Source: Brasilonema sp. CT11 (GTDB lineage: Bacteria; Cyanobacteriota; Cyanobacteriia; Cyanobacteriales; Nostocaceae). From it: a stretch of 41,732 nt of DNA. The stretch is taken from contig NZ_JABXYX010000065.1 in NCBI RefSeq assembly GCF_017982655.1, positions 1 through 41,732 on the forward strand. Reading direction: 5' to 3'. Below are positions 2,371 through 16,514 of this stretch, piece by piece (position 1 is the stretch's first letter; each line of letters opens with the position of its first letter). The notes under the pieces were generated by a model. The model ran no database searches. It was not told the origin of the DNA and was given only the letters and a program-made list of their open reading frames with translations. The position numbers and the translations under genes were made by a program.

Positions 2371-3255
2371 GTGTCTGTAGTGAGCAAGGAGCAGCAATTG
2401 TTGCGAACAATGCGAGGAGTTGTCCGAAAGGCGGGGAAGCTAAAGCGTATCTTGCCGTTTCATGAACAGTGGTTGGCAAAGTTTGATTTGTTGAGAACTT
2501 TGGTGCGACGGGATTTAGAAGCACGCTACAAAGGTTCTGTTTTAGGGAATTTATGGCCTTTGTTGAATCAGCTATCCCAGTTACTGATTTATACTTATGT
2601 GTTCTCAATTGTACTAAAAGCAAAGCTAAGTCTCAAAGGTTTTCCAGAAAACAATTTTACCTTTGGTTTGTGGTTATTTGCAGGGTTACTGCCTTGGATT
2701 GCTTTTAGTGGTGGTTTGATGCAAGCCTCTACTTCGGTGATAGGACAGCCTAACTTAGTAAAAAAAGTTGTGTTTCCCTTAGCTTTGTTACCGATAGTGC
2801 CAATTTTATCAACGTTTATTGAGAGTTCCTTTGGTTTAATGGCGTTGATTTTTTTTGTGGCGGTACAAACTCAGACTTTACATACAACTTTGGCGCTCTT
2901 ACCGTTGGTTTGGCTACCACAGTTATTGTTGACAGCAGGATTAGGTTATTTGACAGCAGGACTAACGGTATTTCTGCGAGATATACCGCAGACTTTGGCA
3001 GTTATTTTACAGCTTTGGTTGTATCTAACACCAATTGTTTATCCAGCATCGTCCATACCACCAGAATTCCGGGAGTGGGTATTTTGGTTAAATCCTCTGA
3101 CAGCTATAGCTGAAATTTATCGTGACTTAATTTTAGTCGGGCAAGTGAAACATTGGGGCGAGTGGGGAGTTGCTTTTGTGACTTCTGCTGTTATATTTTG
3201 TTGCGGTTTTTGGGTGTATAAGCGGTTGCGTCCAGCGTTTGCTGACGTGTTGTAG
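2371..3255 (+). CDS. wzm: ABC-2 type polysaccharide export permease (Wzm-like)
   Basis: A 294-residue inner-membrane protein with about six hydrophobic segments. A soluble N-terminus (about 45 residues) precedes the conserved entry motif RTLVRRDLEARYKGSVLG, typical of Wzm/KpsM/TagG permeases that pass finished polysaccharide chains across the membrane. The last segments contain the LTPIVYPASSIP and LNPLTAIAEIYRD patterns of the family. The start used is a GTG preceded by GAGAGAAA; a GTG at 2380 and an ATG at 2410 are alternatives. It is followed 125 bases later by the matching ATPase gene, so the two should form one exporter. wzm is used as the generic name for the role, not as proof of orthology. 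Confidence 0.9.
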   Translation: MSVVSKEQQLLRTMRGVVRKAGKLKRILPFHEQWLAKFDLLRTLVRRDLEARYKGSVLGNLWPLLNQLSQLLIYTYVFSIVLKAKLSLKGFPENNFTFGLWLFAGLLPWIAFSGGLMQASTSVIGQPNLVKKVVFPLALLPIVPILSTFIESSFGLMALIFFVAVQTQTLHTTLALLPLVWLPQLLLTAGLGYLTAGLTVFLRDIPQTLAVILQLWLYLTPIVYPASSIPPEFREWVFWLNPLTAIAEIYRDLILVGQVKHWGEWGVAFVTSAVIFCCGFWVYKRLRPAFADVL

Positions 3256-3380
3256 CAAAATGCGGCCACTTAACGTTATTATTATTCGCCAGAGTTTACT
3301 AAGTTTTATAGCTTAATTGATGATTTCTGATTCAAAATCTTATAAGAGTTTCAGATGTCGTAGGAATATGCGTGTGTGCT

Positions 3381-4742
3381 ATGGGTGAGGAAATTGCAAT
3401 ATCTCTCAAGAATGTCTCAAAGTGCTACAGGCGCTATGCTCGCCCGGTAGATAGGCTCAAAGAAGTTTTACTACCAGGTAAAAACCATGCACAAGAGTTT
3501 TGGGCATTGCAGGATATTAACCTCAAGGTTTCTAAAGGAGAAACTGTAGGGATTATAGGTCAAAATGGCTCTGGCAAAAGTACGCTGTTACAAATTATTG
3601 CCAAAACGCTGACACCCACTACAGGAGAAGTACACGTCAATGGTCGTGTTTCTGCACTATTAGAGCTTGGTAGTGGGTTTAATCCTGAGTTTACAGGACG
3701 GCAAAATGTATTTTTCAACGGGCAAATTTTAGGATTAACCCGAGAAGAGATACAAACTAAGTTTGACAATATTGCTACTTTTGCTGAAATTGGTGATTTC
3801 ATGGAGGAGCCAGTAAAAACCTATTCCAGCGGTATGTTTGTTCGGCTAGCGTTTTCAGTAGCAATCAATGTTAATCCTGAAATCTTAATTGTAGATGAAT
3901 CATTAGCTGTAGGTGATGGTGTTTTCGTGCATCGCTGCATGGCAAAAATTCGAGATTTTCAAGATGCAGGAGGGACAATTTTATTTGTATCCCATGATGT
4001 AGGTGCTGTTTCCCGGCTTTGCACAGAAGCACTCTGGATGAATCAAGGTGTGATAGTAGATACCGGAAAGCCAGCAGAAGTATGCAAACATTATCAAGCT
4101 TGGATACATGAAGAAGTCAATAAAAGAACTGCAATACATAATATAGAGTCACAACAACAAATTTTACAAAATAGCACAGAAGAAAAAATTGATATCACTA
4201 AAATCACTCATAAAGAATTCAATCCTTTTACAGGAAAAGCATATATTGCATTTAATGGATTTGAAAGATTTGGTACAGGGCGTGCGGAAATTGAAAGTGT
4301 CTATTTAATAGATGCAGATAATCAGCCAATTAATTTAGTTTATCCAGGAGATATAGTAAGAGTCAGAATAACTACATTAAGACATGATCAAATTAGAAAA
4401 CCTAATGTAGGTATAGCTCTTCTCGATAGACTGCGGACTGTTTTATCTGGATGGAGTACTGAGTTGATAGATAAAAGTTTTGCCAATTACTGGTTATCTC
4501 AATCAGAAATAGGAAGATCCGTAGTTGAATTTGAGTTTGTTTGGCCTCATCTTGTAGGAGGAAGCTATGCTTTCGATATAGCTTTTGGTGATGGACCACA
4601 CGAAAATTTGGAAATGTTGGATTGGATTCAAAATGCAACTGTAATACAAGCAGCTGTCAAGGATTTTGTAGATGGTATTTTTCAAGTTTCTGGAAGGAAA
4701 GTCAGATTATGTGAGGAATCTTCATTATGTATAAAAGGATAA
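3381..4742 (+). CDS. wzt: ABC polysaccharide exporter ATPase with C-terminal glycan-binding domain (Wzt-like)
   Basis: The N-terminal ABC domain (about residues 1-245) shows Walker A GQNGSGKS (about residue 60), the variant signature YSSGMFVRLAFSVAI and Walker B ILIVDESLAVGD, as in Wzt/TagH/KpsT. After a linker (about 250-280) comes a beta-rich C-terminal domain (about 285-450). This matches the Wzt C-terminal carbohydrate-binding domain, which in E. coli O8/O9a recognises the modified non-reducing end of the chain before export. ATG at 3381 gives the conserved MGEEIAISLKNVSKCY start. An in-frame GTG at 3372 has a better placed AGGA and would add three residues. The 3' end overlaps the acyltransferase by 16 bases, suggesting coupled translation. 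From about base 4130 on, the DNA is more AT-rich than in the ATPase part. Confidence 0.92.
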   Translation: MGEEIAISLKNVSKCYRRYARPVDRLKEVLLPGKNHAQEFWALQDINLKVSKGETVGIIGQNGSGKSTLLQIIAKTLTPTTGEVHVNGRVSALLELGSGFNPEFTGRQNVFFNGQILGLTREEIQTKFDNIATFAEIGDFMEEPVKTYSSGMFVRLAFSVAINVNPEILIVDESLAVGDGVFVHRCMAKIRDFQDAGGTILFVSHDVGAVSRLCTEALWMNQGVIVDTGKPAEVCKHYQAWIHEEVNKRTAIHNIESQQQILQNSTEEKIDITKITHKEFNPFTGKAYIAFNGFERFGTGRAEIESVYLIDADNQPINLVYPGDIVRVRITTLRHDQIRKPNVGIALLDRLRTVLSGWSTELIDKSFANYWLSQSEIGRSVVEFEFVWPHLVGGSYAFDIAFGDGPHENLEMLDWIQNATVIQAAVKDFVDGIFQVSGRKVRLCEESSLCIKG

Positions 4743-5251
4743 ACAGTTTTTTCAAATCAAGGCTAGAAAGAATGATAAAAAGAACTGTAGATAATTATCT
4801 CGTTCAATATTTAGCTCAAGGCTATTTTGATGAACGTATTAAAGAAGTTATGCTCAACCAATATTTAGTTTTTGGTGATGCCAAACAACTAAAGTTATCA
4901 GAAAGTTGCATTGTTAATAATGCTACATTTAACTTATCTTCTGGAAATATACTGATTGGGGACTATGTTTTTTTTGGTCATAATGTGAGTTTAATAACCG
5001 GAACTCATAACTATAATAAATTTGGTCTTGATAGAATAAATGATTTTCCGAAGCAAGGGAATGATATTATCGTTGAGGAAGGTGCATGGATAGCAAGTAA
5101 TGCAACGGTACTTGGTCCATGCAGGATTGGAAAGCACTCTGTAATTGGTGCAGGTGCTGTGGTCAAGGGTGATATTCCTAGCTATCACATTGTGGCAGGT
5201 ATTCCTGCTAAAACAATAAAGGAAATCAAACCATTGACTGAGAAAAATTAG
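4727..5251 (+). CDS. Left-handed beta-helix (hexapeptide) acyltransferase
   Basis: A 174-residue protein whose second half has hexapeptide repeats ([I/V]GxxxxI type: ILIGDYVFFGHNVSLI, WIASNATVLGPCRIGKHSVIGAGAVV) and the family ending DIPSYHIVAGIPAKTIKEI. Such enzymes (WbbJ/maltose O-acetyltransferase group) move acetyl or another acyl group from a CoA donor to a sugar, normally as trimers in the cytoplasm. The His in GTHNYNKFG is the likely catalytic base. The first 60 residues are an unusual basic helical stretch. It overlaps the Wzt-like gene by 16 bases, so it probably modifies the exported glycan. The exact acyl group and sugar cannot be told. Confidence 0.85.
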   Translation: MYKRINSFFKSRLERMIKRTVDNYLVQYLAQGYFDERIKEVMLNQYLVFGDAKQLKLSESCIVNNATFNLSSGNILIGDYVFFGHNVSLITGTHNYNKFGLDRINDFPKQGNDIIVEEGAWIASNATVLGPCRIGKHSVIGAGAVVKGDIPSYHIVAGIPAKTIKEIKPLTEKN

Positions 5252-5293
5252 AAAAATTTTCAATCTTAAATAATAGATAAGTAGATAATAACG

Positions 5294-6814
5294 ATGGATG
5301 CAAATAATCCGAAAATTAACGTCGATGAATTAATGGATAAAATTCGCGAGGAAGTCGCTAGTCGTCCCAGACAACCTCAGCAAAGAAACGTAACGACATA
5401 CAAACCAGAAAATCCCAATGGCACAGGAACACTTCATCATATATTTAATCATCTTAACAATTTACTTTCTAATGCTGAGTCTAGAGCTATTATCCGCACT
5501 CAATGGCCTGAAAACCTTAAGAAATTTCCTTTTAACTTAAGTCAACCTTTACAAAAAATTGCTTTAAAAATACTAAATTTTATCTTTAAAGATCAACGAG
5601 AAGTCAATTTTAATGTCATCCGCGCTTTGAAAGAATCTGTGGCACTGAATCGACAGATGACAGAGCAAATAACAAATTTAAAAATTCAGATTGATGAGCG
5701 TTATGATGCTGTAAATACTCGCTTCAATGCTATAGAAACTCGTTTACAAGAGATAGATGAGCGTTTAGATATTGTTTGTAACTGTGTTTCCATTATAAAT
5801 GATGGTTGGGATGATACTAATACCAAAATCAATAGTCATTTTGATGCTGTGAATAGTCAAAAACAGTTAATAGATGAGCATCTCAAAACTCTAGATACAC
5901 AAGTCCAAGGAGGAGATGAGCGTTTGCGTAGTGTGGATACTCGCTTGCAAGGAATGAATGAACAGCTAAATGCTGTAAATACTCGTGTGGAAAACTTGGA
6001 TACGCGTCATCTAACAAACGATAATTATCTGAAAAATGATTTCATACAGCAAAAGCGTATAATAAGCATGTTTTTGGAAGAAGCACGTAAACGATTACCA
6101 GAACCTTTTAGCCAAGAACAGTTGGAAGCTCTTGCTAATGAAGAACAACACTCACTTGATGCTTTTTATGTAGCTTTTGAAGACCAGTTTCGAGGTAGCC
6201 GTGAAGATATTTTTAACAAGTTAAGAGTTTACTTACCCTTAATTCAAGAAGCAAAGGTTGGTACACCAGACTTACCTATTTTGGATGTGGGTTGTGGACG
6301 CGGCGAATGGTTGGAGTTGCTGGGTGAGTCTGGATACACAGCAAGGGGTATTGACATCAATAGAGTCATGATAGAACAGTCTAAAGCCAGAGGACTGGAT
6401 GTTATGGAATCAGACGTCATTGCATATCTGCACTCTTTACCAGATGCAAGTTTAGGTGCAGTCACTGGGTTTCATATTATAGAACATTTGCCATTTGAGG
6501 TCTTGATTAAGTTGTTCGATGAAACTGTCAGGGTTCTTAGTCCTGGGGGTCTTGCTATTTTTGAAACACCCAACCCGGAGAATATATTAGTAGCTACTCA
6601 TACATTTTATGTAGATCCAACTCATCGCAATCCCTTGCCTAGTACCATGATAAAGTTTACAGCCCAGGCTCGCGGTCTGTCCAAAGTCACAATAATGAAG
6701 CTTAATTCTTATCCAGAAGATCAAAAATTGAGTGGTTCTCCCATAGTTGAACGCTTAAATAGTTTCTTTTATGGTTCACAAGACTATGCTGTGATTGGGT
6801 ACAAAAATGGGTAG
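5294..6814 (+). CDS. SAM-dependent methyltransferase with long N-terminal heptad coiled coil
   Basis: A 506-residue protein in three parts. Residues 1-130 are a mixed N-terminus with helices. About 134-255 is a coiled coil built of visible heptads of the form D/N/E-T/E-R-L/F-x-x-I/V (DERYDAV, NTRFNAI, ETRLQEI, DERLDIV; later DERLRSV, DTRLQGM, NEQLNAV, NTRVENL, DTR). About 290-506 is a class I methyltransferase with motif I LDVGCGRGEWLELLG (from about residue 330), GIDIN at the end of strand 2, and HIIEHLPFE downstream. It follows the exporter and acyltransferase genes with a 42-base gap. The closest functional parallel I know is WbdD, where a methyltransferase and a coiled-coil ruler fix O-antigen chain length; there the coil is C-terminal and a kinase domain is present, here not seen. 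Methyl transfer to a sugar is inferred, not shown. Confidence 0.85.
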   Translation: MDANNPKINVDELMDKIREEVASRPRQPQQRNVTTYKPENPNGTGTLHHIFNHLNNLLSNAESRAIIRTQWPENLKKFPFNLSQPLQKIALKILNFIFKDQREVNFNVIRALKESVALNRQMTEQITNLKIQIDERYDAVNTRFNAIETRLQEIDERLDIVCNCVSIINDGWDDTNTKINSHFDAVNSQKQLIDEHLKTLDTQVQGGDERLRSVDTRLQGMNEQLNAVNTRVENLDTRHLTNDNYLKNDFIQQKRIISMFLEEARKRLPEPFSQEQLEALANEEQHSLDAFYVAFEDQFRGSREDIFNKLRVYLPLIQEAKVGTPDLPILDVGCGRGEWLELLGESGYTARGIDINRVMIEQSKARGLDVMESDVIAYLHSLPDASLGAVTGFHIIEHLPFEVLIKLFDETVRVLSPGGLAIFETPNPENILVATHTFYVDPTHRNPLPSTMIKFTAQARGLSKVTIMKLNSYPEDQKLSGSPIVERLNSFFYGSQDYAVIGYKNG

Positions 6815-6940
6815 CGACTGCTTTTGTAATACTACGAAAAATTAGTAATCAAATAGCAGGTTTGAACTATAAAACTCGGCTCCAATGTTCATAAAATAAA
6901 CAATGAGTTTTCATAATTCCCTATTATTAGGATATCAACT

Positions 6941-8029
6941 GTGACTAGGATTGCTATTTTAACCCCGTGTCTTGTAGATGGAGATGCTGTCGGTAATGAT
7001 GTTATAGGAATGCATAAATCTCTCATGAAAAATGGGTATGAAGCCCAGATATTTGCAGAGGGAGGAAGCTTTGATCAACATCAAATCAAACATATAAAAG
7101 AGATCAGAAACTTTTTACAGAAAAAATCTGATATCTTGATTTATCACTATTCTATGGGTTGGGAGTTTGCTCTTAATTTATTAAGAGAAGTGAATTGTAA
7201 GAAGGTTGTAAGATACCACAATGTGACCCCAGCAAAATTTTACGAAAATATTAACGCAGAATATACAATTGTTTGTAGAGACGGACGAGAACAACTGAAA
7301 TATATCGCTGCTATACAAGATATCTTCTACTTATCGGCTTCTGAATATAATTCTTCTGAATTATATTCCCTCAACATTCTTCAAGAAAATGTTGTGGTAT
7401 TGCCTCCTTTCCATCATATTCAAGATTTGCAATACATAGATGCAGATCTTAGTGTTTTAGATAGATATATAGATGGCACAGTCAATATTTTAATGGTTGG
7501 TCGTTTAGCACCAAATAAAGGACACGCTACACTGATTGACGCTTTTGAGATTTACCACAATACCTACAATCCACATAGTCGTCTTTTCATCGTTGGAAAA
7601 GAAGATGAACGCTTAAAAAACTATAGTACTTTGATTCATCAAAAAGTAAACGATTTAGGTTTACAAAATTCAGTCGTCTTTACAGGAGGAGTTTCTAATG
7701 AAGCTCTAAAAGCCTACTATCTTGTCTCCAATGTTTTTCTGATGACGAGTGAACATGAGGGGTTTTGTGTACCACTGGTTGAAGCTATGGCAATGAAACT
7801 GCCAATAGTAGCTTATGGTTCAACTGCTATTCCTTACACGGTAGGAAAAGCAGGTTTGGTTTGGGACCAGCCAGATCCTTATTTATTAGCTGGATCGATA
7901 GACTGTATCGCTCGGGACGAAGTCGTTAGTGCCAATCTCGGTGAACTAGGATGGCTGCGATACAATGAAGCTTTTACAAATGAACGGCTCGAAACAAATT
8001 TTATAGAAATTATCAAAAACATAGAATGA
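6941..8029 (+). CDS. Glycosyltransferase, GT4-like (GT-B fold)
   Basis: A 362-residue cytoplasmic GT-B enzyme. The C-terminal half carries VNILMVGRLAPNKGHATLIDAF (start of the donor-binding domain) and the EX7E motif in EHEGFCVPLVEAMAMKLPIV (first Glu about residue 271), as in retaining GT4 transferases that use nucleotide sugars. The N-terminal half has few conserved residues, as usual for acceptor domains. The start is a GTG with TAGGAT 8 bases upstream. It overlaps the next gene by ATGA, so the two glycosyltransferases are translationally coupled. The sugar and linkage cannot be read from sequence. Confidence 0.88.
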   Translation: MTRIAILTPCLVDGDAVGNDVIGMHKSLMKNGYEAQIFAEGGSFDQHQIKHIKEIRNFLQKKSDILIYHYSMGWEFALNLLREVNCKKVVRYHNVTPAKFYENINAEYTIVCRDGREQLKYIAAIQDIFYLSASEYNSSELYSLNILQENVVVLPPFHHIQDLQYIDADLSVLDRYIDGTVNILMVGRLAPNKGHATLIDAFEIYHNTYNPHSRLFIVGKEDERLKNYSTLIHQKVNDLGLQNSVVFTGGVSNEALKAYYLVSNVFLMTSEHEGFCVPLVEAMAMKLPIVAYGSTAIPYTVGKAGLVWDQPDPYLLAGSIDCIARDEVVSANLGELGWLRYNEAFTNERLETNFIEIIKNIE

Positions 8030-9213
8030 AAAAGATTGCAATTGTTGTTCAACGATGGCATGAAAGCATAGTAGGCGGCTCAGAAGCTTTAGCATGGCAA
8101 TATGCCACTTTATTGAGTGATGAATATAAAGTTGATGTCCTGACAACAACAGCATTAGAGTATACAAGCTGGGCTAATGTCCTACCTGCGGGTTGTGAGG
8201 CAAAGCAAGACATCAACATTTATCGCTTTCCAGTAACTATCGGACGAAGTAACTACTGGCACAATTTACATGCAAGGCTTTTACGAGAGTTTCACTACCG
8301 CAAGCATATTCAATTAAAAAATAGCAAACTCATACCTTGGAATATTGCACTTCAAGAAGAGTTTATTCGCCGTCAAGGTCCCTACTCAGAACCCTTGCTA
8401 TCTTTTTTAAAAGAGCGGTGTCATGACTACGAAGCTATTATATTTACAACTTATCTTTATCCAACCACTTACTTTGGAGTCACTCAGGTTCCCTTAGCCA
8501 AAGTTCTACTAGTACCAACACTTCATGATGAACCACTGGCATACTTAACCGCCTATAAGCATACGTATGAAAATGTTCGCGGTTGGATATGGTTGACGAA
8601 TGCTGAGAAAGTACTTGGAGAAAAGTTATGGGGAGAATTGCCAGGTAGTGTTGTATCTATGGCAGTTGAAACATTACCTTGTAGTCCCTTTCAAGCTGAA
8701 TATCCATATTTACTTTACTGTGGTCGTATTGATCCAAGTAAAGGATGTAGCGACTTAATAAATTTCTTCATTGAATTTAAGAAAAGTCACCCATCGAACC
8801 TGCGTTTAATTTTGACAGGTAAAGCTGAAATAGAAATACCATCTCGTCCAGATATTGAATTTCGTGGATTTGTTTCAGCCGAAGAAAAATTCCAACTCAT
8901 GGCTGGGGCTTCTATTTTTGTTATGCCTTCACCTTATGAAAGTTTTAGCATAGTCACTTTGGAGGCTATGGCTCAACGTACACCAGTATTAGTCAATGGC
9001 TGTTGTCAAGTTTTAGTTGAACATGTTGTACGTAGTGGATGTGGTCAAATTTACCACGATTACGCGGGCTTTAGTGAAGGAATACAACAAATCATGGCAC
9101 AGGAACATAAGTCAAGTGAAATGGGTCACATAGCCAGGAAATATGTGGTAGAAAATTATGCTTTTGACAGTGTAAAAAAGAATCTTTCAGAAACTATTAA
9201 AAAATATATCTAA
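8026..9213 (+). CDS. Glycosyltransferase, GT4-like (GT-B fold)
   Basis: A 395-residue enzyme. The N-terminus MKKIAIVVQRWHESIVGGSE shows the glycine-rich GGSE loop of GT4 acceptor domains. The C-terminal domain begins at YLLYCGRIDPSKGC and contains the EX7E motif ESFSIVTLE (first Glu about residue 305). It starts inside the stop of the upstream glycosyltransferase (ATGA) and is followed by a 372-base gap, so the two form a small unit. It probably adds a residue to the growing chain in the cytoplasm from a nucleotide-sugar donor. Specificity is unknown. Confidence 0.88.
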   Translation: MKKIAIVVQRWHESIVGGSEALAWQYATLLSDEYKVDVLTTTALEYTSWANVLPAGCEAKQDINIYRFPVTIGRSNYWHNLHARLLREFHYRKHIQLKNSKLIPWNIALQEEFIRRQGPYSEPLLSFLKERCHDYEAIIFTTYLYPTTYFGVTQVPLAKVLLVPTLHDEPLAYLTAYKHTYENVRGWIWLTNAEKVLGEKLWGELPGSVVSMAVETLPCSPFQAEYPYLLYCGRIDPSKGCSDLINFFIEFKKSHPSNLRLILTGKAEIEIPSRPDIEFRGFVSAEEKFQLMAGASIFVMPSPYESFSIVTLEAMAQRTPVLVNGCCQVLVEHVVRSGCGQIYHDYAGFSEGIQQIMAQEHKSSEMGHIARKYVVENYAFDSVKKNLSETIKKYI

Positions 9214-9585: not shown

Positions 9586-10275
9586 ATGAAACTTTCTGTA
9601 GTTATACCTTGCTATAACGAAATCGGAACAATTGGACAGGTTGTTAAGGCTGTTAAAGCATCTCCAGTTACAGATTGTGAAATCATCATTGTTGATGATT
9701 GTTCAACAGATGGTACACAAGAAATTTTAAGAACAAAATTAGAATCGCAGGTTAACCAAGTTATTTATCATTCTAAAAATCGAGGCAAAGGTGCTGCCTT
9801 GCGTACTGGATTTGCTGCTGCTACCGGTGATATTGTTATTGTTCAAGATGCTGATTTGGAGTACGATCCTCAAGAATATCCTATAATGATTCGACCTATT
9901 TTACACAACAAGGCTGATGTCGTCTTCGGTTCCCGTTTTCAAAGTGGTAGACCTCATAGAGTTGTGTACTATTGGCACAGGATAGGAAATGGATTTCTGA
10001 CAATGTTGTCTAATATGTTTACAAACATCAACATAACAGATATGGAAACATGTTACAAAGCGTTTCGACGGGAAGTGATTCAATCTATCAAAATAGAAGA
10101 AAATCGTTTCGGATTTGAACCTGAAATAACAGCAAAGGTAGCTAAAATGGAATGCCGTATTTATGAAGTTGGAATTTCCTATTATGGTCGTACATATAAA
10201 GAAGGTAAAAAGATAGGCTGGAAAGATGGTTTTCAAGCAATATCTTGTATTTTTAAGTATAATCTGCTGAGATGA
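9586..10275 (+). CDS. GT2 glycosyltransferase, polyprenyl-phosphate sugar synthase-like (DPM1/ArnC type)
   Basis: A 229-residue GT-A enzyme with the family signature at the N-terminus ([18 protein letters not shown]), [13 protein letters not shown] (nucleotide-binding Asp pair, about residues 33-45) and [14 protein letters not shown] (DXD region, about residue 88). It then has DVVFGSRF and [14 protein letters not shown], all typical of DPM1-type enzymes that load a sugar from GDP- or UDP-sugar onto a polyprenyl phosphate. No C-terminal membrane helices are visible, so it is the short form. A strong AGGAGG lies 7 bases before the ATG. It is followed by a multi-pass GT-C-like protein and a small EamA transporter, the partners expected for a lipid-linked sugar pathway. 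Confidence 0.88.
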
Positions 10276-10334
10276 ACACGCCGATATTTTTTACAATGTG
10301 ATATCAATAATACTTGAAGTTTAGTTTTTCTAAA

Positions 10335-12524
10335 ATGCTAAAACTTTGTATAAAAAACAAGACTAAACTGCGTAGTCTTGTTTTAAAAAATAATGCTCTT
10401 GTAATCTTCTTAATTTGTATTGCTGTTTATCTAGCAAACGGAGTAACAAGAAGTTCTGGAGATTCAGTTCCAAATACATTACTGGCTTTCAACTTACTTG
10501 AAAATCATACTTTGCATCTAGATGCTTTCAGGTTTAGCTATTTTGTAGACAAAGGTTTTTCTTATGCTTTTGCTGAGGGAAATAACGGTCATCTTAGCTC
10601 TACCTATCCCATAGGAAGTGCTATTGTTACTTTTCCTCTATATCTGCTTTTTTATCTCTATTTAAAACTGATATATCATGGAGATATTATTAATTTAATA
10701 TCTCCAAATTTTGAAGAACATAGACTTTTTTTTGAAAAGCTTGCTGCAACAATAACAACTGCTGGAACAGTTGTTATATTTTATTTATCTTCCAGATTAA
10801 AATTTTCTAAAAGGATATCTTTTGTATCAACTTTTATATTCGCATTTGCTACAAACACATGGATGACCTCTTCTCAAGGACTATGGCAACATGGAATATC
10901 TAATCTAGCACTTATAAGCTGTATATTTTGCTTACTCAAAGCAAATCATACATCACATCAAACAAAATGGTTATTGTTAGCAGGTATTGCTTGTGGACTA
11001 CTTCCAGGTATTCGTCCTACTAGTAGTTTGTTTTCTATTGCAATAATTGTTTACTCAATCTTTACCTATCGATTGAAAGCTGTTTTTTTATTTTTTGGTT
11101 TAGTTTCAGCAATCCCTAGTTTGGCGTGGAATTTATACTATTTTGGAAACTTAAGCGGAGGCTACTCCAAAATGTTTCATGAACCGCCATACTTATTTAC
11201 ATTGAATCATTTTATGAGTGCATTTTTAGGAACGCTCATTAGTCCAAGTCGGGGTATACTCATTTATTCCCCTATTGTTTTATTTTCTTTCCCTGGAGCT
11301 TGTCATGTTTTTAAATTAAGATTTAATAAAGATGAAAAATTGATAACATGTATCACTATATCTTCGTTTTTTTTACTACTTAGTTATTTCTTCTATACGG
11401 TTTGGTGGGCAGGGCATTCTTATGGTCCAAGATTTATCACTGATATAATGCCTGTAGCTTGCTATCTGATTAATTATTTCTTAAACAATCAATTTTTTTT
11501 CAAAAAGAAAGGTACTAAAAATAATTATTTAAACTTGATTTTTATGATTTTTTTCATCTTTTCTTTGTTAATTCAATTCACAGGTGCTTTCAGTGGTATC
11601 CCAGGTTTTTTCTGGAATGGCATCCCTTTAAATGTTGATAAATATCAGTCTAGACTGTGGCAGATCAGAGACAGCCAAATAGAGAGAAATGCTAACGCTT
11701 TATTTCACAAAATTATTAAGCCATGCACACGTAACCGACTCTACATTCAAGGGCTAAGTGGGATAATCAAACAAGTGACAGACGAAAAAGGTCAACCTAT
11801 CAATTCAATAATATCAGTTCAACCTGGTTCTGAAAAAGTTCTTAAAGCTTATTTAGAAAATATAGGTACATCAAGCTGGTATGGTTACCAGTCTGCACTT
11901 GAAAAAGGCGAAACGCGTGTGAGAGGAATATTCTACAACAGCAATAATCAAGGAGTTAAAGAGGTGCGTCTCTATGTTTCTGATATGACCAAAAAACATG
12001 AAACTGCTAATGCAATTAGTACTATTTCATTTCCTCAAGAAACAGGAACGTACAAACTTACATTTGATTTGATAGCCGAAGGAGTTGATGAGTTTCCAAA
12101 AAACAATAATATCAACAGTTCTTATACATTCACGGTAATAGTTGGGGGAAAACGCCACTTTTCTCAAGAAATACAAGTCTTAAAACCATTCAAATCTGGC
12201 AAGGTTAGGGAGATAGTAAAAATTCCAGTCATTGTGAAAAATACTAGTGATTTTATGTGGCAGAACGCAAGTGCTCATCCTGTGAATCTTGCCTATCACT
12301 GGTTAAATACTAGTGATAAAGTTATTGTTTTTGATGGTGAGCGTACTCCTTTACCGAAAAATGTAGCTGTACAAAGCTTTCAGAAGTTAAACGCAACTAT
12401 TAAATTTCCTGATCAGCCTGGAAAATATTATTTGGCTTTGACAATGGTTCAAGAGGGTGTGGCTTGGTTTAGTGATCAAAATACAACTTTTCTAAAAATT
12501 CCTGTAGAAGTTGTCGGTCAGTAG
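10335..12524 (+). CDS. Large multi-pass membrane protein, GT-C (GT39-like) with tandem C-terminal Ig-like domains
   Basis: About 729 residues from the ATG at 10335; an in-frame TTG at 10314 would add seven, and neither start has a clear ribosome binding site. The first roughly 430 residues hold about ten hydrophobic segments. The first loop (GDSVPNTLLAFNLL) is acidic, as in GT-C enzymes that take sugar from a polyprenyl-phosphate donor outside the membrane, and VWWAGHSYGPRFITDIMP is a pattern I associate with this group. The last roughly 250 residues are soluble and beta-rich. They contain two related units (about 510-600 and 620-725) with matching landmarks: an N-x-S/T-x-x-W start, then PGxYxLxxxxxxEGVxxF near the end, similar in pattern to NBR1/CARDB-like Ig folds. 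The gene is strikingly AT-rich. Its enzymatic activity is inferred. Confidence 0.72.
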   Translation: MLKLCIKNKTKLRSLVLKNNALVIFLICIAVYLANGVTRSSGDSVPNTLLAFNLLENHTLHLDAFRFSYFVDKGFSYAFAEGNNGHLSSTYPIGSAIVTFPLYLLFYLYLKLIYHGDIINLISPNFEEHRLFFEKLAATITTAGTVVIFYLSSRLKFSKRISFVSTFIFAFATNTWMTSSQGLWQHGISNLALISCIFCLLKANHTSHQTKWLLLAGIACGLLPGIRPTSSLFSIAIIVYSIFTYRLKAVFLFFGLVSAIPSLAWNLYYFGNLSGGYSKMFHEPPYLFTLNHFMSAFLGTLISPSRGILIYSPIVLFSFPGACHVFKLRFNKDEKLITCITISSFFLLLSYFFYTVWWAGHSYGPRFITDIMPVACYLINYFLNNQFFFKKKGTKNNYLNLIFMIFFIFSLLIQFTGAFSGIPGFFWNGIPLNVDKYQSRLWQIRDSQIERNANALFHKIIKPCTRNRLYIQGLSGIIKQVTDEKGQPINSIISVQPGSEKVLKAYLENIGTSSWYGYQSALEKGETRVRGIFYNSNNQGVKEVRLYVSDMTKKHETANAISTISFPQETGTYKLTFDLIAEGVDEFPKNNNINSSYTFTVIVGGKRHFSQEIQVLKPFKSGKVREIVKIPVIVKNTSDFMWQNASAHPVNLAYHWLNTSDKVIVFDGERTPLPKNVAVQSFQKLNATIKFPDQPGKYYLALTMVQEGVAWFSDQNTTFLKIPVEVVGQ

Positions 12525-12651
12525 TGTAAAAAACAAAACAAGCTCATCAAAAAAATTATTTTTAAAAAGTTTTTATTACTATAATAACTGACTCACTCAA
12601 TCGTGTAAAATTTTTAGACATAAAATACGTGTATACAGCAAGGAAATATTT

Positions 12652-13020
12652 GTGACACTACAAGAATTGAGTTTATTACTGATGTCAGTCATCGCTAGTG
12701 TAGCAGGTCAGTTTTTTTTAAAAACAGGAGCACTCAAGTTAGGCAAAGTTCATGTAGGGAATGTAGTTGCTCATATTCTCAGCATCTTGACAACGCCTGA
12801 ACTTTTAATAGGGCTAAGTTGCTACGCTTTAGGTGCTCTGGCTTATATTCTACTTTTAACCAGAGTTAACCTGAGCGTTGCTGGTCCATCTGTTTCTCTG
12901 GTTTATGTTTTTTCCGTTATACTGGGTTATTTCATATTCAAAGAACCCATTCCTTTAACTCGTCTTATGGGTTTGAGCTTGATTATAGGTGGAGTTATTT
13001 TGGTAGTCTGGAAAAAATAA
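12652..13020 (+). CDS. Small four-helix EamA/ArnE-like transporter
   Basis: A 122-residue protein with four hydrophobic segments covering almost its whole length, starting LSLLLMSVIASVAGQFFLK and ending ILVVWKK. Gly/Pro positions (AGPSVSLVYVFSVILGYFIF, FKEPIPLTRLMGL) fit the half-size EamA/SMR group that includes ArnE/ArnF, which flip aminoarabinose-phosphoundecaprenol. The start is GTG with AAGGAAA 6 bases upstream. Lying just after a DPM1-like GT2 and a GT-C-like protein, it is best read as the flippase for a polyprenyl-phosphate sugar, probably as a homodimer. A drug-efflux SMR role is less likely given the neighbours. Confidence 0.78.
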   Translation: MTLQELSLLLMSVIASVAGQFFLKTGALKLGKVHVGNVVAHILSILTTPELLIGLSCYALGALAYILLLTRVNLSVAGPSVSLVYVFSVILGYFIFKEPIPLTRLMGLSLIIGGVILVVWKK

Positions 13021-14158: not shown

Positions 14159-14167
14159 TTGCATAAT

Positions 14168-15490
14168 ATGAATTCAGAACCAGAAATCTCACCAGTCGAT
14201 GCAAGTTTTTTACCTGGTGTTAACATCGCAGGTTATATTAATAGTGAATTTGGTTTAGGCGAAGGGGTACGATCAACAATTAGAGCACTGGAAGCAGTTG
14301 ATATTCCTTTCGTGATTAACAACTGCACTTTCAATACGTTTCATAGAAAATTAGATGATACTTATACAAATTTCTCAGACGAGAATCCCCATCCAATTAA
14401 TATTGTTCATGTGAATGGGGATATGATAAATTTTTTTCTTAACTCTGTAGGAATTGAATATTTTAAAAATAAGTACAATATTGGACTGTGGGCATGGGAG
14501 CTTCCTGATTTTCCCAAAGAATGGCTAAGAGCATTCAATCTTTTTGATGAAATATGGACTCCCAGCAGTTACAGTGTGGAGGCGATAAGCGAAGCTTACT
14601 GCCAAGGGCAGAACGCACCGCTATCACCTGTGCCAGTCCTTAAAGTTATGCACAGTATCTGGTTACCACAACCTACAGCAAGTAAACAATCACTGGGGCT
14701 ACCAGATAATAAGTTTATTTTTCTCTTTATATTTGATTTTTACAGCGTTTTTGAACGCAAAAATCCTATAGCAGTCATTGAAGCTTTTCAGCGAGCATTT
14801 GGTAAAAATGATCAAGTATTGCTTGTTCTTAAATTTTCTAATGCTCACAAGTTTCCTGATAAATATAAACAGTTAAAAGATTTAGCACAAGATTTTAAAA
14901 ATATAAAAATTATTGATAAATATTTGCTCAAAAATGATGTCAATACTTTGATTTACCATTCTGATTGCTATGTATCTTTACATCGTTCTGAAGGATTTGG
15001 CTTAACTATTGCTGAGGCTATGTTCTATGGAAAACCAGTTATAGCCACTGCTTACTCTGGAAATATTGACTTTATGAATGTTAATAACAGTTTTCCTGTC
15101 AAGTATTCTTTAACTACCTTAACAGAAGATTATGCACATTACAAGAAGGGAAGTACATGGGCAGAACCAGATATTGACCATGCAGCATATTTAATGCAAT
15201 ATGTGTTTAAAAATTATGAAGAAGTAAAGCAGATAGGTGCAAAAGCAGCTGAAGACATTAGGTCTTACTTAAGCCCAAAAGTGATTGGTCAAAAAATGAA
15301 AAATCGATTGGGAGCGATAACACAGAACAGTAGTAAATTGATAGAGAGTCCTCAATTAGAGACAGAATTAAAACACAAAGATGCAGAAATAGAACGATTA
15401 AAAGCTTTAGTTGACTATATGGAAAGAAGCAATTTTTGGCAACTAAGAAATTGGTGGTTTAAGCTAAAAGGAATGTTGCCACTAAAATGA
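14168..15490 (+). CDS. Glycosyltransferase, GT4-like, with C-terminal coiled tail
   Basis: About 440 residues from ATG 14168; a TTG at 14159 is in frame but an unlikely start. The N-terminal domain begins GVNIAGYINSEFGLGEGVRS, a glycine-rich loop seen in a common cyanobacterial glycosyltransferase group, and includes GLWAWELPDFPKEW. The donor domain holds FIFDFYSVFERKNP and the EX7E motif EGFGLTIAE (first Glu about residue 275). The last 50 residues are a short coiled coil (ELKHKDAEIERLKALVDYMERS) with an amphipathic WQLRNWWFKLKG end that could lie on the membrane. It directly follows gmd, so the Gmd-derived sugar may be its donor; this is inference. Confidence 0.86.
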   Translation: MNSEPEISPVDASFLPGVNIAGYINSEFGLGEGVRSTIRALEAVDIPFVINNCTFNTFHRKLDDTYTNFSDENPHPINIVHVNGDMINFFLNSVGIEYFKNKYNIGLWAWELPDFPKEWLRAFNLFDEIWTPSSYSVEAISEAYCQGQNAPLSPVPVLKVMHSIWLPQPTASKQSLGLPDNKFIFLFIFDFYSVFERKNPIAVIEAFQRAFGKNDQVLLVLKFSNAHKFPDKYKQLKDLAQDFKNIKIIDKYLLKNDVNTLIYHSDCYVSLHRSEGFGLTIAEAMFYGKPVIATAYSGNIDFMNVNNSFPVKYSLTTLTEDYAHYKKGSTWAEPDIDHAAYLMQYVFKNYEEVKQIGAKAAEDIRSYLSPKVIGQKMKNRLGAITQNSSKLIESPQLETELKHKDAEIERLKALVDYMERSNFWQLRNWWFKLKGMLPLK

Positions 15491-15542: not shown

Positions 15543-16514
15543 ATGTTTAATTTGAAGAAGCGATTCAACCCCAAAGCAACTCTTGATGATGTGATTTCTG
15601 CATACAGACTTTTCCTAAGAAGAACGCCAGATGATGCAGGGTTTCAACATTACAAAAAACATATACAAGCAGGTTTATCACTTGATACACTGATAACTGG
15701 ATTTTTAGAGTCAACTGAATATAAAAATATTTTACAAAGTGAACAAGAAATTCAATTAGTCGAAATTGGCGGAAGGTTTTTATATACTCGATTATCAGAT
15801 AAAGACGTGGGAGGCGAAATCATTAAAAGTAGACAATATGAACCGCATATTACAGAGGTATTATCTAAGTTATTACAAGAAGAAGATACATTTGTTGATA
15901 TTGGTGCAAATATAGGTTACTTTACAGTACTGGGTGCATCTCTTGTTGGAGAGAAAGGAAAAGTAATTGCAATCGAGCCAAATCCGAATAATGTGCAATT
16001 GATTTTTGCTAGTCTTATCAAAAATGGATTTGAAAATGTTTCTGTACTTCCATATGCAGCCTCTGATTGTGAATCAATCTTTGAAATGATTATAGGAAGT
16101 TCCAATGGATATATCGTCAGTCCTAAAGAACCAACTGAGTGCAGCGTTTTTACACAATCCATTATTTTGGATGAACAACTTGCCAAATATCAAAAGATAA
16201 ATGTAGTTAAAATAGACGTCGAAGGACATGAACTTAATGTCATCAAAGGTTTTCGAGAATTATTAAAGAAATTCTTTCCTACGATAATTACTGAATTCCA
16301 TCCAAAAGCATTAAGAGAATGTGGAGGAATTGACCCTGAAGAATATCTATCTGAGTTATTTGAATTATACAATTCAGTATCCATAATATTAAGTAATGGA
16401 ACTTTTAAGAAATATTGGAACTATAACGATGTTCTTCAATATTGGACTGAAGTTAATAAGATAAATAACATGGGAGATATGATGCACTTAGACTTAATTG
16501 CATCTATCAAATAA
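15543..16514 (+). CDS. FkbM-family methyltransferase with N-terminal DUF4214-like domain
   Basis: A 323-residue protein. Residues about 15-60 (DDVISAYRLFLRRTPDDAGF, then a short helix pair) match the DUF4214-like repeat that is often fused to polysaccharide enzymes. From about residue 115 there is an FkbM methyltransferase: FVDIGANIGYFTVLGA (motif I), GKVIAIEPNPNN, and KIDVEGHELNVIKG, the FkbM hallmark. FkbM enzymes O-methylate sugars or other hydroxyls using S-adenosylmethionine. It lies 52 bases after the GT4 gene in the same direction. It is a second candidate, besides the coiled-coil methyltransferase, for methylation of the exported glycan. Confidence 0.88.
   Translation: MFNLKKRFNPKATLDDVISAYRLFLRRTPDDAGFQHYKKHIQAGLSLDTLITGFLESTEYKNILQSEQEIQLVEIGGRFLYTRLSDKDVGGEIIKSRQYEPHITEVLSKLLQEEDTFVDIGANIGYFTVLGASLVGEKGKVIAIEPNPNNVQLIFASLIKNGFENVSVLPYAASDCESIFEMIIGSSNGYIVSPKEPTECSVFTQSIILDEQLAKYQKINVVKIDVEGHELNVIKGFRELLKKFFPTIITEFHPKALRECGGIDPEEYLSELFELYNSVSIILSNGTFKKYWNYNDVLQYWTEVNKINNMGDMMHLDLIASIK

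Follow-up and report, generated by a model that had tools for sequence, protein, structure and literature searches.

The window analysed here (the whole stretch of 41,732 nucleotides from Brasilonema sp. CT11) encodes a 506-aa protein, ccMT, that combines an N-domain, a coil and a C-terminal methyltransferase and lies next to the genes of a glycan ABC exporter. We consider it probable (about 0.6) that ccMT terminates the chains of a surface glycan exported by an ABC transporter, as a methyltransferase carried on an inverted, repeat-tunable ruler; this glycan is probably an LPS O-chain. On this best reading the known kind is the WbdD-type terminator on a coil, and what is new is its inverted, repeat-tunable version. 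No description of a terminator with a C-terminal methyltransferase, or of a glycan ruler encoded by tandem repeats, was recognised in the literature outside subscription papers, as far as its accessible text extends.

The features of the locus are collected in Table 1. According to Pfam, the Wzt of the window consists of an ABC ATPase followed by Wzt_C, which is the definition of a Wzt with a glycan-binding C-terminal domain (CTD), and its best PDB match by sequence is an ABC transporter chain (8dku, E 3.3e-71). The in-frame ATG at 3381, used as the Wzt start in the initial annotation of this DNA, is the fourth codon of wzt and an alternative start. That annotation had described a Wzt with a C-terminal domain, an overlapping acyltransferase and a coil-first methyltransferase, and all of these are indeed present, with an overlap of 16 bp between wzt and the acyltransferase gene; the two GT4 genes overlap by 4 bp. 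A same-strand gene lies at most 200 bp after ccMT in 42 of the 43 loci in which a following gene was found (overlaps there being computed with every gene taken at its longest possible frame).

Table 1. Features of the ccMT locus, in positions of the window
Feature	Position	Strand	Evidence
Wzm, permease of glycan ABC exporter	2371..3255	+	Pfam ABC2_membrane, E 5.5e-23
Wzt, whole gene	3372-4742	+	ABC_tran and Wzt_C
Wzt nucleotide-binding domain (NBD; aa 1-250)	3372..4121	+	ABC_tran, E 1.2e-22
Wzt C-terminal domain (aa 275-456), type I	4194..4739	+	Wzt_C aa 298-437, E 5.9e-23
Hexapeptide acyltransferase	4727..5251	+	Hexapep, E 3.7e-11
ccMT, whole gene, 506 aa (N-domain, coil, methyltransferase)	5294..6814	+	
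ccMT N-domain (aa 1-122)	5294..5659	+	Kept across 15-row alignment
ccMT coiled-coil spacer (aa 123-288), predicted	5660..6157	+	Periodicity, heptads, model
Regular heptad blocks of ccMT coil	5693-5776 (aa 134-161), 5894-5998 (aa 201-235)	+	
ccMT class I SAM methyltransferase domain (aa 289-506), O8-WbdD type by homology	6158..6811	+	44% identity to E. coli O8-cluster protein
GT4 glycosyltransferase directly downstream of ccMT, candidate polymerase part	6941..8029	+	Glycos_transf_1, E 2.6e-26
Second GT4 glycosyltransferase	8026..9213	+	Glycos_transf_1, E 4.3e-18

The catalytic domain (aa ~326-465 by Pfam, ~289-506 by model) is the part of ccMT that connects it to known terminators. It shares 44% identity over 216 aa (E 2e-55, HMM 234 bits) with the protein encoded after wzm-wzt in an O8-type cluster of E. 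coli, in keeping with the label 'WbdD-like' given earlier; this protein is called WbdD from its cluster position and layout, its record reading 'methyltransferase domain-containing protein'. Judged by sequence comparison, the ccMT catalytic domain is homologous to O8 WbdD (so assigned), with the order of modules inverted. Specifically, the O8 protein runs from methyltransferase (aa 4-216) through a coil-like stretch (judged by eye, with a 156-bp repeat) to a C-terminal tail, whereas the window has N-domain, coil and methyltransferase, so that the reversed order of parts proposed in the initial annotation stands. Like ccMT, the WbdD of E. coli O8 and K. pneumoniae O5 is methyltransferase-only, and its gene lies between wzt and the gene of a polymerase-like GT4 protein (one with three GT4 stretches in the O8-type cluster); moreover, the O8 protein likewise has its coil-like stretch in the same polypeptide; the ccMT N-domain profile has zero matches in it. 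No kinase family was found in ccMT by Pfam and NCBIfam scans at E 0.01, which rules out a recognisable kinase domain at that threshold and agrees with the initial annotation, where none was seen; its absence fits the WbdD likeness, since the O8 homologue is methyltransferase-only according to the accessible part of PMC3482155. The O5 glycan ends in a methyl, and O5 is the same as O8, in the accessible part of PMC11231755.

Other terminators are known in which a similar set of parts is arranged differently, each being cited here from the accessible part of its source. E. coli O9a WbdD is, as proposed for ccMT, a terminator on a coiled-coil ruler of an ABC-transporter-dependent O-antigen (PMC3482155, PMC5082667), and coil insertion or removal alters its chain length (PMC5082667), but its order is methyltransferase-kinase-coil and it methylates a phosphate; WbdD is absent among the PDB matches listed for ccMT, which comprise all 38 of one search and up to the best 50-60 of two others. 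K. pneumoniae O7 ORF6, O12 WbbB and O4 ORF7 also carry a terminator module on a coil, apart from the polymerase modules, with the terminating domain described as N-terminal, whereas that of ccMT is C-terminal (PMC11231755). The E. coli O101/O162 rfb methyltransferase, compared by description, has a coiled coil proposed to be a molecular ruler, and its disruption alters chain length, but its methyltransferase is N-terminal and its coil C-terminal (PMC13168486). The Synechocystis cluster slr0977/slr0982/slr1610, again compared by description, pairs a Wzm/Wzt exporter of cyanobacterial origin with a methyltransferase that has been discussed as a possible terminator; slr1610 carries the annotation C-3 methyltransferase, and according to the abstract the purified O-antigen shows no differences (PMC3769361). 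Measured against the WbdD type, ccMT thus has the terminator-homologous methyltransferase, the coil in the same polypeptide and the neighbouring Wzm and CTD-bearing Wzt, and it lacks the N-terminal catalytic domain with C-terminal coil as well as the kinase (a feature of the O9a subtype only).

The inverted layout is also found in Proteobacteria, Acidobacteria, Nitrospirae and others, which rules out a cyanobacteria-only system, and the idea of a 'cyanobacterial variant' is not supported. The methyltransferase is C-terminal in 78 of 80 loci and preceded by at least 100 aa in 78 of 80, which is not a frequency, since these are the best 80 of at least 475 loci and favour long coverage. In the same best 80 of at least 475, a Wzt is nearby in 54 and a Wzt of at least 370 aa in 52; with 35 of 49 cyanobacterial rows also having one, the homologues do lie mostly near Wzt, as the initial annotation required. 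The parts are found in either order beside wzm-wzt. In L194, L197 and L198 a member of the same methyltransferase family stands at the N-terminus of a polypeptide that also contains GT4 modules and follows wzm-wzt, the GT4 domains of L197 and L198 having been confirmed. In the phylum of a P. putida record, the methyltransferase profile at 1e-45 matches 7 of 398 genomes, with the domain N-terminal in five and C-terminal in two (five and one without the record's own genome, which was chosen for having the gene). The whole-protein profile at E <=1e-20 matches 40 of 386 cyanobacterial genomes, many via the methyltransferase only and three via the N-domain only.

Another explanation would be that ccMT is an ordinary glycan O-methyltransferase with an acquired low-complexity N-terminal extension, its likeness to WbdD being one of enzyme family only. 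The fold is widespread, relatives with open frames as short as 238-265 aa exist, and the closest solved structure (3dli, sequence E 4e-34, Foldseek E 2.6e-17) is a 240-aa chain from the archaeon A. fulgidus, named just 'methyltransferase' and matched by the methyltransferase part of ccMT only. We nevertheless regard this explanation as highly improbable, given that N-domain conservation extends down to 32% identity in a 15-row alignment, that placement between wzt and GT4 recurs across phyla and that both part orders adjoin wzm-wzt.

The N-domain contains a INVDELMDKIREEVA motif and a conserved block with a predicted amphipathic helix at about aa 82-105 (LSQPLQKIALKILNFIFKDQREVN), whose hydrophobic moment is 0.54 (two methyltransferase windows are slightly higher). 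It occurs in 17 of 386 cyanobacterial genomes, once each, 14 times in long frames and three times in frames of 157-165 aa without methyltransferase, and this distribution leaves fusion to other enzymes unsupported. A lone N-domain, without coil or methyltransferase, directly precedes a GT4 gene (GT4 domains confirmed) in L172, L173 and L174. We propose the N-domain as a candidate anchor or GT-docking module.

Between the N-domain and the methyltransferase, the regular heptads of the initial annotation (at least nine, at about residues 134-255) were recovered: nine match its pattern, in two blocks (Table 1), with some 40 aa of weaker register between them. The strongest hydrophobic period of aa 95-270 is 3.55 residues, with a power of 18.7, as compared with a best power of 4.8, at 3.65, for aa 280-506. 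The AlphaFold2 monomer has helices at aa 84-171 and aa 179-267 (mean pLDDT 77), with a low-confidence break at aa 171-180 that was counted against the ruler reading. Together, monomer prediction and periodicity indicate that a long coiled coil and the methyltransferase share one polypeptide in ccMT, and this coil is not due to chance, because relatives retain it though its length changes.

Across homologues the ends of the protein are constant, the coil is variable and the heptad register is kept. The spacer ranges from 47 to 247 aa, or from 83 to 247 aa without two doubtful cases, L103 (47 aa), whose frame also matches a 612-aa protein described below, and L170 (51 aa), in which the N-domain was not matched at the usual threshold. 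The coefficient of variation in length is 0.27 for the spacer (n=43), 0.05 for the N-domain (n=38) and 0.018 for the methyltransferase (n=43), the spacer being tabulated for 43 of the 44 ccMT (L171, without N-domain, was left out). Core lengths fall into one class modulo 7 in 14 of 26 proteins (P 7e-5 once the set was reduced to 12 clusters), as against P >=0.178 for the control moduli 5, 6 and 8-11; the test took the 26 of 44 ccMT proteins with an anchor match. Among close relatives, Brasilonema L036 and L046, with a methyltransferase identity of 100% after rounding, are 14 aa apart (one 42-bp unit), the near-identical Microcystis relatives L094 and L093 22 aa (one 66-bp unit), and the window's ccMT and the near-identical L034 7 aa. 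Three of the 11 near-identical pairs with unequal spacers differ by 24, 9 and 51 aa, which are not whole coil periods.

The DNA that encodes the coil is itself often repetitive. In-frame tandem arrays were found in the coil DNA of 19 of 44 ccMT genes, as against 12 of 459 other nearby genes (Fisher P 9e-15); at the thresholds used, the window's own coil is among the 25 of 44 without an array. The best periods of the 19 arrays are all multiples of 3 bp, 14 being multiples of 21 and four of 33, and the commonest is 42 bp (two heptads).

In the mechanism that we propose, the N-domain would tether one end of ccMT to the inner membrane, close to the GT4 enzymes that polymerise the chain, and the coil would push the methyltransferase out from them. 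A growing chain would be capped only once its end reaches the methyltransferase, so that coil length would set a minimum chain length. Since an in-frame tandem array makes up the coil DNA, or did so until recently, the coil itself would lengthen or shorten by whole coiled-coil periods. Which finished end Wzt reads would depend on a separate cassette, in which wzt is either alone or joined by the gene for the acyltransferase or for a 612-aa methyltransferase. Terminal methylation, the oligomer, membrane anchoring, polymerase docking, length control and the reading of the modified end by the Wzt CTD are what we infer. A more specific form of the proposal, for which the odds are somewhat below even, places the ruler in a coding minisatellite: in-frame slippage of 42-bp (two-heptad) or 66-bp (two-hendecad) units would retune glycan length by about 2-3 nm per step with the coil intact, and a swappable wzt-plus-modifier cassette would separately change the exported end.

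Alternatively, the coil may be an oligomerisation or scaffold rod only, with the glycan not measured and length drifting neutrally by repeat slippage within register. Tandem arrays slip readily, the register is retained across three- to five-fold length variation, and a strongly selected ruler might stay length-conserved within a genus, yet the Microcystis and Brasilonema relatives differ. Still, we think such a passive rod unlikely, since very long arrays exist (13 copies in L104) and since a coil between a conserved N-domain and a terminator-type methyltransferase, beside an exporter, amounts to the parts of O9a length control, in the accessible part of PMC5082667.

Three types of Wzt CTD (I, II and III) occur in cyanobacterial ccMT loci (L103, with a truncated CTD, was left out of the tree and type counts, and four CTD-less Wzts out of the CTD clustering). 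The window's CTD is of type I, with 70-99% identity to those of L034, L040 and L097, 53% to that of L109 and 14-25% to those of other CTD loci. With author-set label thresholds (acyltransferase >150 bits, 612-aa protein >250 bits, Wzt >200 bits), the acyltransferase accompanies type I only (four of five loci), the 612-aa methyltransferase gene is present in 11 of 12 type II loci, and both genes are missing from all 13 type III loci. In L109, the ORF of 178 aa that takes the place of the acyltransferase gene had no blastp match and does not encode an acyltransferase. The acyltransferase, which the initial annotation had tentatively included in length control, is present in only 4 of 49 cyanobacterial rows (these include two duplicates, L165 and L168, and three N-domain-only loci); it is therefore ruled out as a regular ccMT partner and tracks Wzt type instead.

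Wzt type and ccMT assort independently (Spearman -0.005; 11 type changes on the methyltransferase tree, 12.8 in shuffles), and thus the CTD does not simply read an end specific to a ccMT variant. Nor is the methyltransferase always beside a CTD-bearing Wzt, a point that the initial annotation had put forward for checking: Wzt is CTD-less at L086, L160, L166 and L167, and in 14 of 49 cyanobacterial rows the examined stretch, which in some cases ends at a contig edge, has no Wzt, so that ccMT is not tied to CTD-based export. This independence, and the tracking of CTD type by cassette gene, would suit a scheme in which ccMT methylates internal sugars or a precursor and the cassette gene (acyltransferase or 612-aa methyltransferase) makes the true terminal modification. 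Type II co-switching on the ccMT tree (six of six independent pairs, P 0.031; three or four of four on the Wzm tree, P 0.25 or 0.125) points the same way. Adjacency alone, however, could co-move wzt and the cassette gene, as the whole wzt moves (two type changes on the NBD tree), and the O8 homologue is described as a terminator. Moreover, the 13 type III loci retain the CTD and methyltransferase without cassette genes, and there ccMT or another enzyme must make the end group. We judge this scheme improbable, more so than the passive rod.

If ccMT is indeed a terminator on an inverted ruler, such a device can be built in either direction, and there exists a natural series of rulers differing by whole coil periods; the Brasilonema pair L036/L046 and the Microcystis relatives make the coil-length rule testable on nature's own rather than engineered variants. 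The setting of chain length (by ccMT) would then be separable from the end read by the exporter (the wzt cassette), two functions usually treated as one, and coil length from sequence could predict relative O-chain length in uncultured cyanobacteria. Should the minisatellite form of the proposal also be true, a single export system would have two settings that can evolve separately, one for the length of the chain and one for the chemistry of its end.

The window is one whole contig, and its transport and glycan genes (table below) are followed by more glycan genes beyond the second GT4. The initial annotation had seen here a Wzt with a C-terminal domain, an acyltransferase and a heptad-bearing methyltransferase, and this observation was confirmed, since the genes, the domains and nine heptads of the described pattern, grouped in two blocks, are all present. 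The 506-aa methyltransferase protein (ccMT) consists of an N-domain (aa 1-122), a coil spacer and a C-terminal methyltransferase. Its AlphaFold2 model (a monomer, 39-sequence alignment, mean pLDDT 77) places helices at aa 10-23, 44-67, 84-171 and 179-267 and, C-terminal to them, a mixed helix-strand region at aa ~289-506; the hydrophobic period in aa 95-270 is 3.55.

Transport and glycan genes around ccMT in the window
Feature	Position	Strand	Remark
Wzm	2371-3255	+	
Wzt	3372-4742	+	ATPase and Wzt_C domains both present
Hexapeptide acyltransferase	4727-5251	+	
ccMT	5294-6814	+	
GT4 glycosyltransferase, first	6941-8029	+	
GT4 glycosyltransferase, second	8026-9213	+	

The closest solved relative of ccMT METHYLTRANSFERASE is 3dli, which is also ranked first by Foldseek. 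A protein search of plasmid records returned 60 relatives, all with coverage of ccMT below 80%, and the E. coli, Serratia and Enterobacter entries match in the methyltransferase part only. On the E. coli plasmid pECO-5e72 the relative sits between an 'O8 family' wzt and a 1213-aa protein containing three GT4 stretches, with wbdC farther along; according to passages of PMC11231755, O5 is the same as O8 and its polymerase has three modules. From position, layout and the three-module polymerase we identify this gene as O8 WbdD, a name that the record itself does not give. Among complete E. coli genomes, 303 of 5426 carry the O8-cluster methyltransferase gene, and the match touches the 'O8 family' wzt in 11 of the 12 genome matches listed. 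Residues 290-504 of ccMT align with residues 4-216 of the O8 protein at 44% identity (E 2e-55), and the ccMT N-domain profile gave no match to that protein. Therefore, for the catalytic domain the comparison with WbdD drawn in the initial annotation was right, but the near relative is the O8 enzyme, methyltransferase-only according to an excerpt of PMC3482155, and not the O9a form. On IncX5 plasmids, E. coli and Serratia carry an O8 WbdD-like allele (L176:2831-4264, one shared protein accession) in which 156 bp of the coil are exactly duplicated; it measures 1434 bp, whereas 11 of the 12 E. coli genome matches listed span 1278 bp. Elsewhere in the window (14159-15490), the C-terminus of a GT4 protein consists of a short coil-like segment and then SNFWQLRNWWFKLKG, by eye like the SRSWRITQPLRW stretch following the coil of the O8 protein.

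ccMT is like WbdD in parts and setting and unlike it in domain order, as the methyltransferase comes first in O8 WbdD and last in the window. Among the best 80 of at least 475 loci, picked for query coverage and so no measure of frequency, the methyltransferase ends at most 25 aa from the C-terminus in 78 and is preceded by at least 100 aa in 78. A sample of 398 genomes with less bias contains the family in seven: five are methyltransferase-first and two methyltransferase-last, and the sample had been centred on one of these two. Three further loci, all downstream of wzm-wzt (L194, on a Campylobacter plasmid, L197 and L198), encode an N-terminal ccMT-family methyltransferase running on into GT4 modules. 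Because these and the O8 protein are methyltransferase-first, and the window and many of its relatives methyltransferase-last, both module orders occur; the inverted order is found across several phyla. It could be compatible with the arrangement described in part of PMC11231755, in which the terminating enzyme lies at the coil's far end from the polymerase modules. A DUF4214 domain lies well upstream of the methyltransferase in several non-cyanobacterial relatives (L100, L102, L118, L135, L144), and the window FkbM methyltransferase (15543-16514) likewise begins with one.

Both coil ends could be placed in 43 of 44 cyanobacterial ccMT proteins, whose spacers measure 47-247 aa (median 160, CV 0.27), or 83-247 aa once two doubtful cases (L103 and L170) are set aside; N-domain (CV 0.053, n=38) and methyltransferase (CV 0.018, n=43) are nearly constant in length. 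At the textbook coil rise of 0.15 nm per residue, the predicted extent is ~25 nm for the 167-aa window spacer and 7 to 37 nm for the family. Where anchors are clear (26 proteins), core lengths are 62-181 aa; modulo 7, 14 fall in one class and seven in another, offset by three or four (a stutter), a clustering (P 7e-5, 12 clusters by 75% methyltransferase identity) that is absent modulo 5, 6 and 8-11 (P >=0.178). The spacer spread is unusual, since the length variation of coiled coils is 3.6 times below that of other regions, as stated in a section of a review (PMC5082667).

At the DNA level, 19 of 44 ccMT genes hold Tandem Repeats Finder arrays (period >=18 bp, score >=80); of the remaining genes in these stretches that encode 200 aa or more, 12 of 459 do (odds ratio 28, P 9e-15). 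The best period is divisible by 3 bp in all 19 ccMT genes (by 21 bp in 14 and by 33 bp in four; one is 30 bp). A 42-bp unit is repeated 13 times at 98% identity in Anabaenopsis elenkinii and 6.8 times at 95% in Nostoc sp. JL33. Unequal spacers were found in 11 of 15 pairs with methyltransferase identity of at least 85% (differences of 7, 14, 14, 28, 56, 56, 22, 22, 24, 9 and 51 aa), eight of the 11 being multiples of 7 or 11 in pairs that share members and are non-independent. Six of 12 genomes in the Microcystis genus group carry ccMT, with a 66-bp unit in 2.2 copies in two and 3.2-3.4 copies in four, one of which (L221) departs from the others in unit sequence and is one residue longer in the spacer. 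At these thresholds the window gene is free of arrays; between its spacer and that of the sister L034 there is a difference of exactly 7 aa.

The N-domain remains conserved at identities as low as 32%, with P72, F78, Q101, R102, N105 and N119 invariant in 15 rows, and its hydrophobic moment is high around aa 82-105 (two methyltransferase windows are slightly higher). It also stands alone, as a 156-164-aa protein encoded 146-169 bp upstream of a GT4 gene in three genomes (L172, L173, L174); L109 encodes a separate N-domain protein in addition to a ccMT. By longest frames, a same-strand downstream gene overlaps ccMT in 29 of 43 loci and starts less than 200 bp away in 42 of 43. From conservation, hydrophobic moment, lone copies before GT4 and close downstream genes, we infer that the N-domain may dock or anchor glycosyltransferases, at the opposite end of the coil from the corresponding module of WbdD. 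The gene before the lone N-domain of L174 (8018-8491) encodes a 479-aa protein (6467-7906) for which Pfam gave no match at 0.001. Perfect 42-bp repeats (3.5 copies) encode a stretch of its C-terminal part, its tail is rich in tryptophan, and it may be another kind of terminator, built in the WbdD order.

Wzt lies within the stretch in 35 of 49 cyanobacterial rows (which include two duplicates and three N-domain-only cases), four of the 35 without a C-terminal domain (CTD); in these four (L086, L160, L166 and L167) a Wzt of 243-246 aa adjoins ccMT. Clustering of the 31 CTDs gives three groups and leaves one truncated singleton (L103), whose locus carries a gene for a 612-aa type methyltransferase protein. 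Type I comprises the window, L034, L040 and L097, with the acyltransferase, and L109 without it; type II accompanies the 612-aa type in 11 of 12 cases, and all 13 of type III lack both modifier genes. The ATPase halves of these Wzts are 61-100% identical to the window's; for the CTDs, identity to that of the window is 70-99% at the other loci with an acyltransferase, 53% in L109 and 14-25% in the rest. Type changes number 2 on the ATPase-domain tree (shuffled mean 13.2, 30 rows), 8 on the Wzm tree (12.3, equalled in 0.3% of shuffles, 27 rows) and 11 on the ccMT methyltransferase tree (12.8, 15%, 29 rows). CTD and methyltransferase identity are uncorrelated (Spearman -0.005 over 435 pairs), and all six independent pairs on the ccMT tree show type II and the 612-aa gene switching jointly (P 0.031), such pairs being too few to reach 0.05 for type I and on all other trees. 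Tree changes, absent correlation and co-switching show that wzt and its modifier gene move as one unit, independently of ccMT. Adjacency alone could yield such joint movement, so functional coupling of the two is suggested only.

Window 9586-13020 encodes a GT2 glycosyltransferase, a 736-aa protein that matches PMT_2 and carries a long tail at its C-terminus, and a small EamA-like transporter; together they resemble a three-component apparatus for periplasmic addition of side sugars. GT2, EamA and GT39-annotated genes are likewise present in L178, a locus with ccMT on a Pseudomonas plasmid. The type II 612-aa protein (L046:4462-6300) is a methyltransferase plus a C-terminal stretch resembling the tail of the 736-aa membrane glycosyltransferase (32%, E 1.7e-14).

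Terminators bearing coils are already established; in the open-licence papers that our searches listed we noticed no description of the methyltransferase-last order or of a repeat-encoded coil. The best-supported reading is that ccMT would be a chain-terminating methyltransferase mounted on an inverted ruler, whose coil length may shift by whole periods. That this coil would set chain length is carried over by analogy from E. coli O9a, in which, according to part of PMC5082667, coil insertions and truncations alter chain length.
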